Shown here: positions 10,019 through 48,275 of the stretch, piece by piece
Layout: every line of letters begins with the position of its first letter
How positions within the stretch are numbered: the stretch's first letter is position 1
The notes under the pieces: generated by a model
The model's input: the letters and a program-made list of their open reading frames with translations, nothing else
Told to the model about the DNA's origin: nothing
Databases searched by the model: none
Made by a program: the position numbers and the translations under genes
Assembly (NCBI RefSeq): GCF_947654275.1
Contig: NZ_CANTJS010000006.1
Location: 1 to 64,000 of the forward strand
Direction of reading: 5' to 3'
DNA length: 64,000 bases
DNA from: an uncultured Oscillibacter sp.
GTDB taxonomy: Bacteria; Bacillota; Clostridia; Oscillospirales; Oscillospiraceae

Positions 10019-11257
10019 ATGAAACGGAACAACAGCCTGCGCGTGCTGCTTCTGGCGGCCTGGGGAACCTATATGACTGCCTATCTCTGCCGGGTGAACC
10101 TGTCCACGGTGCTGGATAAGCTGTCGGCAGGGCTGGGGGTCAGCGTGGAGTACCTGGGGCTTGCCAGCTCGCTGTATTTTGTGACCTATGCCGTGGGCCA
10201 GCTTCTCAACGGCGCGATCGGGGACCGGGTGAATCCCTACCGCTTTCTGATGCTGGCCCTGAGCCTCACCGGCGGCATCAACCTGATTCTGGCGTTTCAG
10301 ACCAGCGGAGCCCTGTTTACGGTCCTCTGGGGTCTGAACGGCTTTTGCCAGTCCATGTTCTGGAGCACGCTGCTGCGTCTGCTGTCCTTCCACGCCCGGG
10401 AGGACCAGCGGAAAAACGTCTCCACCATCATGTCCACCTGCTCCGTAACAGGCTATCTTCTCAGCTGGGTGGTGCTGAGCTGGCTGTTCCGGCCCCTGGA
10501 CTTCCGGCCCTATTTCCTGGTCCCGGCACTGGCGGCCCTGGCGCTGATTCCGGCGTGGCTCCTGCTGTCCCGCCGGATTCCCTATGAGGACAGGCGGGGA
10601 GAGCGGCCGTCCCCGCCGCCTCTGCCTCAGATTGCCCGGGAATTTGTTCAGGACCGGCTGTTTTTCATCTGTCTGCTCTGTCTGCTGGTGGGGGCCATTC
10701 AGGAGGGGGCGGTGTTCTGGCTGCCCATGATTTTCACCGGCGTCCTGGACCTGGGGGAAAACTCTCTGCTGCTTCTGGTGCTGATTCCCCTGGCCAAGCT
10801 GGCGGGGGTGTTTCTGGCCAGAGGGACCCTCTCCCACCTGGGAGACGACGCGCGCTGGGCGATGCAGGTAATGCTGGCCCTGGCCTGTGCCGCGGCAGGA
10901 TGCCTGGTTTTGACGGCGGAGCATACTTCCCTTGTGACGGTGCTGCTGATTGCCGCCCTCATTGCCGTGGTCAACGCCGGCAACTGGTATATGATCTCGT
11001 ACCTGCCCCTGTATTTCTCCGGCCGGAACATCGTCTCCACCCTGGTGGGCGTCTTCGATTTCTCCACCTACATCGGCGCGTCTCTGATGTCCGGCGCTCT
11101 AGGGGGCCTGCTGAGCCGGGTGGGCTGGGTCGCCCTGCCTGCCGCATGGCTGGCGCTGTCGGTGCTGGGGCTGCTGCTGGCCTTCACCGGCGCTGGCGGC
11201 TGCCTGGCGAGGAAGGGCGAACAGAGAGTGATACTCATTTCAAATAAAACTAAATAG
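10019..11257 (+). CDS. MFS transporter, resembling the GlpT/UhpC (OPA) family
   Basis: This 412-residue permease has about twelve hydrophobic segments. The opening (YMTAYLCRVNLSTVLDKL) and the loop YAVGQLLNGAIGDRVNPYRFL match the MFS motif between helices 2 and 3, and resemble organophosphate:phosphate antiporters and their UhpC-like relatives. The central charged loop (RRIPYEDRRGERPSPPPLPQ) separates the two six-helix halves. The ATG at 10019 has an AAGGAGGAG site and lies 17 bases after the regulator. The substrate is unknown. Confidence 0.85.
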   Translation: MKRNNSLRVLLLAAWGTYMTAYLCRVNLSTVLDKLSAGLGVSVEYLGLASSLYFVTYAVGQLLNGAIGDRVNPYRFLMLALSLTGGINLILAFQTSGALFTVLWGLNGFCQSMFWSTLLRLLSFHAREDQRKNVSTIMSTCSVTGYLLSWVVLSWLFRPLDFRPYFLVPALAALALIPAWLLLSRRIPYEDRRGERPSPPPLPQIAREFVQDRLFFICLLCLLVGAIQEGAVFWLPMIFTGVLDLGENSLLLLVLIPLAKLAGVFLARGTLSHLGDDARWAMQVMLALACAAAGCLVLTAEHTSLVTVLLIAALIAVVNAGNWYMISYLPLYFSGRNIVSTLVGVFDFSTYIGASLMSGALGGLLSRVGWVALPAAWLALSVLGLLLAFTGAGGCLARKGEQRVILISNKTK

Positions 11258-11270
11258 TTTTATTTGAAAT
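11237..11270 (+). terminator. AT-rich hairpin overlapping the MFS stop codon
   Basis: ATTTCAAATAAAAC (11237-11250) and GTTTTATTTGAAAT (11257-11270) form a perfect 14-base stem around TAAATA, with the TAG stop of the transporter at the start of the right arm. It also carries an ACTCATT half-site at its left edge, so it could be a regulator site as well as a 3'-end hairpin. Confidence 0.5.
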
Positions 11271-11323
11271 AGAACCCCACTCTGCGTTTCCGTTTTGCGC
11301 CGGAATGGCACAAAACACGTCTC

Positions 11324-11485
11324 AGAGCCTGTTTAAAATCTCAACGTGTGCGTATTGGCGAGGGGATTTTTTGTCCTGCAAGGCAAAAATCCGCAGGCAT
11401 CCTGACGGATGGCAAGGATTTTTAACGCAGTCAGGGCGGAAAATACACTGTCAAGACGTGTGCGGGGAGATTTTAAACAGGCTCT
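11324..11485. repeat. structured 162-bp repeat, copy 1
   Basis: The ends are a perfect 19-base terminal inverted repeat (AGAGCCTGTTTAAAATCTC). Further pairings sit at fixed offsets. Arm P2 is 11372-11378 with 11432-11438. Arm P3 is AAAAATCC (11385-11392) with GGATTTTT (11416-11423). The apical part is ATCC-TGAC-GGAT. The internal loops AAGGC and AACGCAG are shared with the copies at 11624 and 48014, while arm sequences differ but still pair. No open reading frame fits it. It looks like a non-autonomous mobile element or a structured RNA/DNA element. Confidence 0.85.
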
Positions 11486-11515
11486 CATAAGAATCCAACG
11501 CGTTTCCTGCGCTAT

Positions 11516-11542
11516 AAAAAGCTTTTGAAAGCTTTTTAATGG
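11516..11542 (+). terminator. terminator after the RpiR-MFS operon
   Basis: AAAAAGCTT-TTGA-AAGCTTTTT is a nine-base AT-rich stem ending in a T-run, between structured repeat copies 1 and 2. Confidence 0.5.
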
Positions 11543-11570
11543 ATTCCAGTATGAAGAACAGGGCCTGAAA

Positions 11571-11623
11571 AAACAGGAATCAGGAGCTGCCGGACGAATG
11601 GGGCAGTTCCTGATTCCTGTTTT
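11571..11623 (+). terminator. 20-base hairpin abutting repeat copy 2
   Basis: AACAGGAATCAGGAGCTGCC pairs along its whole length with GGCAGTTCCTGATTCCTGTT (one G-T pair) and is followed by TTTTA. It ends one base before repeat copy 2 begins at 11624. Confidence 0.65.
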
Positions 11624-11786
11624 AGAGGCTGTTTTAAAACCAGCGGAATGTCGGATGGGGGCAGATTGTTTCGCCAGACAAGGCGATTGGACGCGGGAAT
11701 CCTGACGGATTTCAAGTCCAATCAACGCAGTCCTGGCGGAATAAGATACCCCAAGACGGCGTTTTGACGGTTTTAAAACAGACTCT
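11624..11786. repeat. structured 163-bp repeat, copy 2
   Basis: This copy has the same architecture as the one at 11324, in the same orientation. The ends AGAGGCTGTTTTAAAACC and GGTTTTAAAACAGACTCT pair with one mismatch. P2 is CGCCAG (11672-11677) with CTGGCG (11733-11738). P3 is GATTGGAC (11685-11692) with GTCCAATC (11716-11723). The apical ATCCTGACGGAT and the internal AAGGC/AACGCAG are unchanged. No gene is present. From 11787 to 11871 nothing else is seen. Confidence 0.85.
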
Positions 11787-11871
11787 AGTACATTTCCCGG
11801 GAAACCCAGGACCATAACGGACTCACGGGGCTTCCGGACCGTCCAGGGCCTTCCGCCGCCCCGCGCTCCCC

Positions 11872-21785: not shown

Positions 21786-21944
21786 GGGATATTTTGCCCG
21801 ACAGGCAAAAAGCCGCCCCGGTTCTCCGAAAAACAGCGGCGCTTTTATCCGCCTTCTTCTTTCCTTTTTTTCAGGGCTGTGCTATACTGGTCTTAGAATC
21901 TGTATTCACAACCGCTGCACGCCGTCCAGGCGGCAGACTTCACA

Positions 21945-22001
21945 AAAAAACCGCATGGCGGGCAAAAAACCGCGCGGCGGGCAAAAAACCGCGCGGCGGG
22001 G
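21945..22001. repeat. three tandem 19-base repeats
   Basis: AAAAAACCGCATGGCGGGC is followed by two copies reading AAAAAACCGCGCGGCGGG(C/G), directly upstream of niaR and in its probable leader. Each unit contains a small CCGC/GCGG palindrome. It could be a regulator-binding array or simple slippage. Confidence 0.7.
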
Positions 22002-31605: not shown

Positions 31606-31885
31606 CAATTGAAGATTATGGCGAAGATAAGGACGAGTAACCCGCTGGCTTCTCCCAAGAGAGCCGCCGTCTGGTGCGAGGCGGTGAGAAGGGACGGGCG
31701 AACATCACCTTGGAGCCTCCTGCTGAAAGACTGCGCGAGTAGGCAAGGACGTGCGGCGGGCGTTACTCCGCCGGCCCGTATCGGCGGGCTGTAAGGGGCC
31801 GCTTTCCGGAAGGAGGCGGCAACGAGAGTGGTACCGCGGAGCGTTTTTGGCCCTCCGTCTCTTGAAAGAGACGGGGGCTTTTTAT
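31606..31885 (+). promoter_or_regulatory. T-box riboswitch, isoleucine type
   Basis: This leader of about 280 bases contains the hallmark T-box sequence AGAGTGGTACCGCG (31825-31838). The bulge TGGT at 31829-31832 matches an uncharged tRNA ending ACCA, as tRNA-Ile does. The specifier is read as ATC (31704-31706) within GAACATCACC, an Ile codon. The terminator GCCCTCCGTCTC/GAGACGGGGGC with T-run (about 31850-31885) completes it. Uncharged tRNA-Ile should stabilise the antiterminator and switch on the genes from 31908 to ileS. Confidence 0.92.
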
Positions 31886-47726: not shown

Positions 47727-48013
47727 CGGGGAATTCAGCGGCGGATTCCGGCTCATCTCTCCATGAAGAGACGGAATCTTTTGCTCTGTTCCGTCGTTGA
47801 CATAACGCCGTGCAAAACTCTGTGGAAAATGTGTAAAACCCCTGAGAGCCTCAGCCTTTTCCCGGGCGGCAGGCCACGTTATGAAAACAGGCCTCCCACA
47901 ACATTTTCCGAAAAATTCCCGGCCCGGACGCCGCCGGAACCGCCGGGGGGGAGGGAAAACCGCCGGGCGGCGGAAAGCCCGCCGGAGATTTTTTCCGGAG
48001 GCGAAACCGCCTC

Positions 48014-48176
48014 AGAGCCTGTTTAAAATCCGGCGGAGTGCCGGATTGGGGCAGATTTTTTTGTCGGGCAAGGCGGTTTGACGCAGGCATCCTGGCGGAT
48101 TTCAAGTCAAACCAACGCAGCACCGGCGGAAAAAGATGCCCTGTGACGGCATTTCGATGGATTTTAATCAGGCTCT
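48014..48176. repeat. structured 163-bp repeat, copy 3
   Basis: This is the same element as at 11324 and 11624, same orientation. The ends AGAGCCTGTTTAAAATCC and GGATTTTAATCAGGCTCT pair with one mismatch. P2 is 48062-48067 with 48123-48128. P3 is GGTTTGAC (48075-48082) with GTCAAACC (48106-48113). The apical ATCCTGGCGGAT and internal AAGGC/AACGCAG are kept. Offsets of all arms from the left end are identical in the three copies. It lies between degV and the hybrid kinase. Confidence 0.85.
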
Positions 48177-48245
48177 CAGACTCCGGGGGAGCGTGATTTT
48201 TCCGCGGCCGGCTCCGCCGGAGTGCATTCGGGCCCAGGGTGTCTA

Positions 48246-48275
48246 TTGACACTGGAAGCGCGGGAATAGTATAAT
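48246..48275 (+). promoter_or_regulatory. promoter of the kinase/binding-protein genes
   Basis: A perfect TTGACA (48246-48251), 18 bases and TATAAT (48270-48275) lie about 75 bases before the kinase start. Confidence 0.75.

Follow-up and report, generated by a model that had tools for sequence, protein, structure and literature searches.

The window analysed here (the whole stretch of 64,000 nt from an uncultured Oscillibacter sp., NZ_CANTJS010000006.1) carries three copies of a short repeat, all on the + strand, with limits set by their terminal repeats and flanking duplications. Copy 1 (class A; 11325–11484, 160 bp) has the ends GAGCCTGTTTAAAATC and GATTTTAAACAGGCTC, and lies between two 3 bp target duplications reading TCA (11322–11324 and 11485–11487). 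Copy 2 (class C; 11625–11785, 161 bp; ends GAGGCTGTTTTAAAACC and GGTTTTAAAACAGACTC) is flanked by TA duplications (11623–11624 and 11786–11787), and copy 3 (class B; 48015–48175, 161 bp; ends GAGCCTGTTTAAAATCC and GGATTTTAATCAGGCTC) again by 3 bp target duplications of TCA (48012–48014 and 48176–48178). All three had been recognised in a preliminary description, and they are real, with the letters of the P3 arm just as given there. A truncated class D end (TTA, then GAATCTGTATTCACAACCGCTG) is found on the − strand at 21893–21945 (the outer limit, 21945, was placed by eye), next to a short tandem repeat and without a core; the pattern match covers 21896–21913 with 2 mismatches, and the core model R2 has no match there.

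The structured core of copy 1 (11364–11448) consists of P2, twin CAAG/CGCAG loops, P3 and an apical hairpin, and the corresponding cores of copies 2 and 3 are at 11663–11749 and 48053–48139, all on the + strand. In the window, R2 found the three copies at E 3e-18 to 5e-20 (1.8e-19, 3.1e-18 and 4.8e-20, respectively) and its next match at E 0.77; the E-values at the copies are not independent, as the R2 training set held a core identical to that of copy 1 (L001). The 63 bp cores of copies 1 and 2 share 71% identity. Within the limits used in the preliminary description, the + strands of copies 1, 2 and 3 each fold into one long hairpin (−81.8, −84.7 and −91.3 kcal/mol), while the opposite strands give −56.5, −63.6 and −67.6 kcal/mol. 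The loops had been said to be fixed, which holds for most of their letters; the exception is the apical loop, which reads ATCCTGGCGGAT in copy 3.

Two minus-strand open frames cross the copies (11333–11815 and 47851–48252), and no Pfam family matches either of them. A promoter-like site was not found at copies 1 and 2. An inverted repeat with 22 nt arms (95% complementary) occupies 11570–11623, directly left of copy 2, and a perfect 16 bp inverted repeat with a 2 nt loop is present at 11237–11270. The window also carries a tRNA gene (501–574, Rfam match) and a T-box leader (31615–31865; RF00230, 113 bits). No described Rfam family matches the copies at gathering level; the region 11280–11820 gave four weak matches, far under gathering scores, and eight distant loci gave only a T-box adjoining the repeat in L352. 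A TTCGA-like flank had raised the idea that distant copies are embedded in tRNA genes, and was set aside after ARAGORN found none at ten loci. A search of an open-access library found no description of the element family.

The genome to which the window belongs (3.05 Mb, hereafter the own genome) holds about 100 places of this family, located by BLAST and then by R1, a covariance model with 59 pairs built from 22 own copies of five classes. The collection studied comprises 102 own copies, including truncated and insert-bearing ones (some insert-bearing or fragmentary copies had their limits set by hand), and at least three own places lie outside it (C34:26728, C39:10755 and C93:46). Most copies (78/102) are 155–170 nt long and so are too short for a transposase. 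Among 60 relatives, R1 matched 30; across the order it matched 69 of 295 genomes (40 of 149 genera), and across the phylum 14 of 398 genomes, the own genome being counted each time. R2 matched 19 of the 398 phylum genomes, its training having included some loci of that same sample. Matches per genome are lower bounds, and copy number ranges from 0 to at least 49 in a single genus. Carriers of the core pattern among the matches listed include Oscillibacter, Flavonifractor, Lawsonibacter, Candidatus Intestinimonas and Anaerotruncus colihominis; for the last of these, the cultured strain DSM 17241 has a copy (L265). R1, trained on the own genome alone, reaches other families at E about 1e-21 to 1e-28. 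Sets of phage and virus sequences gave one partial phage match and one IMG/VR contig, and the plasmid set had no match to the element.

Terminal inverted repeats are present in the element family, and clustering of 16+16 terminal letters at one cut-off gave 25 end clusters, one of which (T09) mixes unlike ends. The ends are GAGCCTGTTTAAAATC in classes A and B, GAG(G/T)CTGTTTTAAAACC in class C, GAACCTGTATTCATAGCC in class D, GGAAGCACTGATTAAATC in class E, GGG(T/C/G)CTGTTCACATAA in class F and GGCCTTGTTTGA in class G. Seven near-identical class A copies, copy 1 among them, occur in the own genome. Identical TNA flanks were seen in 6/7 copies of class A, 11/12 of class B and 29/49 of class D. Class C duplications are of TA/CTAG type; TA was present on both sides in 11/14 copies of this class (a count that includes L023, class B by its interior), 4/5 of class F and 2/2 of class G. 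The single class E copy showed no flanking duplication, and unclassed copies had identical 3 bp flanks in 2/12 cases; the chance expectation for identical 3 bp flanks would be 1/64.

An IS5-type insertion sequence of the own genome (L175) sits within CTAG and carries PF01609 (DDE_Tnp_1) together with DUF4096. One of its ends (GAGTCTGTTTTAAAACCGTCAAA) is identical to the right end of copy 2 over 23 bases; the other reads GCGTCTGTTTTAAAAC (GCGTCTG) and is an imperfect partner end. In genomes of the genus, L374 (a 1191 bp element of G033, with several differing bases at its other end) carries one class E end (TAAGGAAGCACTGATTAAA), and the insertion sequence L371 of G070 carries one end of L226 (TAGGGCTTGTTTGAAAAATA). 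Ends matching an autonomous element were found for class C in the own genome and, at one end each within the genus, for class E and the class of L226. Ends of class A, B or D were not seen on any insertion sequence among the transposase loci surveyed (27 new ones, drawn from 71 matches in 13 genomes, plus 30 others); L185 and L191 show partial likeness to these ends. R2 matched 5 of 59 transposase loci, at three places. Two of these (L371/L182 and L194/L206) represent neighbouring small elements, with no core found inside a partner insertion sequence, and the third is L189.

Judged by their terminal repeats, duplications, about 100 places and a matching insertion sequence, the copies are MITE-like, and a partner transposase would carry out the transposition step in trans. 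No clean empty site was found among the relatives searched, the orthologous regions that lack a recognisable element being too diverged or rearranged. Two such regions, in L216, are too diverged to provide a clean junction, and a search with joined flanks found the downstream gene alone in relatives, the upstream sequence differing in the six relatives aligned.

Covariation is found in all helices of the hairpin. With 22 own copies of five classes, RNAalifold gave 59 pairs, 38 of which have changes on both sides. Among 110 copies aligned with MAFFT (171 copies before redundancy filtering), 18 pairs reached E < 0.05 under a tree-aware null computed by our own script with 60 simulations, rather than by R-scape; all 18 lie within the nested hairpin, in P1, P2, P3 and P4. 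In 62 diverse cores (76 listed, minus 14 left out by eye), changes on both sides were seen at all 23 pairs, and 89% of cells pair compared with 62% after shuffling and 37–51% after sliding. The compensatory changes that had been described from three copies are confirmed by both of these larger sets, and significant pairs survive our tree-aware null.

Within the ~85 nt core, the internal loop CAAG/CGCAG occurs twice, in opposite orientation, around P3. In loop 1, positions 55–58 (CAAG) lie opposite 102–106 (CGCAG), and in loop 2, positions 89–92 (CAAG) lie opposite 68–72 (CGCAG). Each letter of the twin loops is conserved in 80–97% of 175 rows, except for the A of CGCAG (63 and 67%), and the letters of P3 vary almost freely with pairing retained. 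In three other families of the order (f4, f24 and f26), the core lies within repeats of 270–278 nt that have their own terminal repeats; in one more (f16), the contig end cuts off the left side of the core repeat. In further families of the phylum, the core is carried by elements whose ends read, for example, AGTACTCTGT or GGGCGTGTCTGAAAA. The 270–278 nt repeats at L345, L348, L351, L352, L353 and L355 have several hairpins, one of which is the core.

A hairpin insert of ~54 nt (ACCCAATGGGC...CTATCCAAT) is present in 14 of the 102 own copies, always at the same place in the 5′ P2 arm. Its carriers belong to two classes, B and C (e.g., L051:1392–1607 and L171:2743–2958). The insert motif was seen in 31 of 427 retrieved loci (the loci overlap each other), and every occurrence inspected was inside such an element. 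At L371:2012–2230 (G070), where an insertion sequence adjoins an element with D-like ends, that element has a different hairpin inserted at the same 5′ P2 point. Side hairpins can apparently be accommodated at this position.

As judged by comparing copies, ends and interiors have been exchanged among elements, and the core is common to many unlike ends. L240 is identical to a class A copy at its ends (34/34) and 61% identical in the interior; compared with L215, which has D-like ends, its interior matches at 89% and its ends at only 53%. Similarly, L108 resembles L209 far more closely in the interior (94% shared) than at the ends (59%). On a tree of interiors (169 of the 181 rows with both ends), the 25 end clusters need 41 changes, against a minimum of 24 and an average of 95.8 in shuffles; the tree was made by a quick method from 122 columns, and 86 of its 162 inner branches are open. 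Under the constraints of its starred branches, the minimum number of changes is five for T09 (the mixed cluster), four for T15, three for T13 and likewise for T11, and two for T12. Class C copies adjoin the end GAGGGTGTCTTCAAACTC across a shared TA, near contig ends, at one place covered by L030 and L171, and also at L040 and L043. That end resembles the end of L236, and such junctions are a possible route for the exchange of ends.

In 101 of the 102 own copies, the + strand folds more stably than its complement. For copies of 155–170 nt, it is more stable in 78/78 with RNA parameters (mean −23.5 kcal/mol) and also in 78/78 with DNA parameters (−8.0), a strand gap about three times larger with the former. 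One strand folds better because G-U pairs are kept on it. G-U cells outnumber A-C cells by 717 to 182 in 94 own rows and by 452 to 117 in 76 rows from other genomes, the latter taken on their better-scoring strand and both alignments being fitted to R1. In ten class consensuses the ratio is 64 to 13, with a weak bias in class F (4 to 3) and class C (4 to 2). The class D consensus (46 own rows) has ten G-U pairs and no A-C, or one A-C in a second row set. Either a palindrome in double-stranded DNA or copying from arm to arm would favour neither strand.

The bias is not seen among rare changes of class D (those in two rows or fewer), with 26 G-U and 21 A-C (p 0.56). Counting all single changes at paired consensus positions of class D, shared ones included, 73 lead to G-U and 98 to A-C. 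Singletons of the other classes are biased to G-U (33 to 12, by subtraction); these classes mix source lineages of several genomes, and the neutral-decay result rests on class D. Given rare class D changes without G-U bias, selection seems to act on source copies: these look constrained, and inserted copies look as though they decay. The preference for one strand supports, in part, structural selection on that strand in the source lineages.

Most own copies (81/102) overlap no called gene, as judged by a home-made caller trained on 27 ORFs. Orientation to genes showed no clear preference (same/opposite 38/48 upstream and 33/44 downstream, neighbours being missing for copies in short loci), and a regulatory role in neighbouring genes, considered as a candidate, was rejected on the lack of a clear orientation bias.

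The reading that we favour, with a probability of about 60%, is that of a MITE-like family (~160 bp, without a recognised gene) moved by IS5-type transposases, in which the + strand of the core acts as a folded RNA that aids spread. The DDE transposases of IS5-type insertion sequences would recognise the outer ~17 bp and move the elements in trans. The + strand of the ~85 nt core would act as a folded RNA, and its two like loops (CAAG opposite CGCAG, around a helix of ~8 bp) may be read by a factor tied to no single transposase. This reading of the loops would help a source copy to spread, a role of the core that we infer, and most copies would not be maintained once inserted. Because the core is independent of particular ends, new ends would have been acquired repeatedly, perhaps where an element adjoins another insertion sequence, with the long hairpin letting one arm copy the other. 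The preliminary description had left the choice between a mobile element and a non-coding RNA. Each alternative is partly borne out: the copies are MITE-like, and one strand appears to be selected for its structure, probably as RNA. More tentatively, and somewhat doubtful at present, the core may be a portable module independent of the transposase: an RNA with a function of its own, or single-stranded DNA in folded form, that has moved through many transposon end systems (the 25 end clusters above) across the phylum, also occurs in differently built repeats of ~270–280 nt in distant families, and confers mobility or persistence on any ends it picks up.

If the selected form in the same mobile family were single-stranded DNA, the + strand would fold during replication or DNA uptake, in the manner of attC sites or single-strand origins. 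With DNA parameters, too, that strand is the more stable one (78/78 copies), DNA hairpins tolerate G-T wobbles, and copies 1 and 2 lack a promoter-like site. The larger strand gap with RNA parameters is the reason for favouring RNA, and DDE elements of the IS5 type are not known to require single-stranded DNA; this variant is unlikely. The family might also consist of ordinary MITEs, with compensatory changes produced by quasipalindrome correction, one arm templating the other, and no selection on structure. Long near-perfect arms are known substrates of this process, and both ends do change together when ends are exchanged. Correction yields Watson–Crick pairs, yet one strand retains its G-U pairs, and the unpaired loops remain conserved, so that we regard such an origin as quite improbable.

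Strong covariation, conserved loops and the many copies clear of called genes would also fit a regulatory or non-coding RNA that serves the host, spreads by transposition and is kept where useful. The absence of a clear orientation preference on either side of genes, the lack of structural constraint in rare class D changes, and a copy number that varies from 0 to at least 49 within one genus all argue against it, and make service to the host very improbable. Hairpins are common in intergenic DNA, and unrelated ones with similar loops might converge by chance, an explanation that can practically be dismissed given that loop letters and spacing are shared and that the own-genome model R1 matches other families at the E-values given above.

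The nearest insertion sequences are presumably the IS427- and IS1031-like groups of the IS5 family, with CTAG/TNA targets; the likeness to this family lies in matching ends, in duplications of CTAG or TNA type, and in PF01609 plus DUF4096 on L175. The bcr1 repeats of the Bacillus cereus group are about 155 bp long, mobile and folded; likened by description only, they resemble the present elements in size, mobility and folding, and differ in host. REP/REPIN sequences with their RAYT are likewise abundant, palindromic and non-autonomous when compared by description, and they have shorter units and a different type of transposase (RAYT). RUP and BOX of pneumococcus, Correia/NEMIS, ERIC and Nezha are described as elements of less than 200 bp with terminal repeats, target duplications and long stem-loop transcripts (PMC2229807, PMC3049150). 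The same reports note that RUP ends resemble those of IS630-Spn1, and that Nezha has been proposed to be moved by ISNpu3-like elements (PMC2229807, PMC3049150). The present family is like these in being short, with terminal repeats, duplications and folding, and unlike them, as far as those descriptions extend, in a twin-loop core common to many ends (PMC2229807, PMC3049150).

No part of the element is shared more widely than its middle, and its ends can be exchanged; therefore, something in the middle appears to be selected. The combination of exchangeable ends and a conserved middle points to an undescribed function of the middle. The usual view of small non-autonomous elements treats them as insertion sequences that have decayed and whose middles are passive. 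The family found here, with a covariance model that allows the core to be found elsewhere, provides a testable case of a nucleic-acid module that may serve transposition or survival independently of the transposase.
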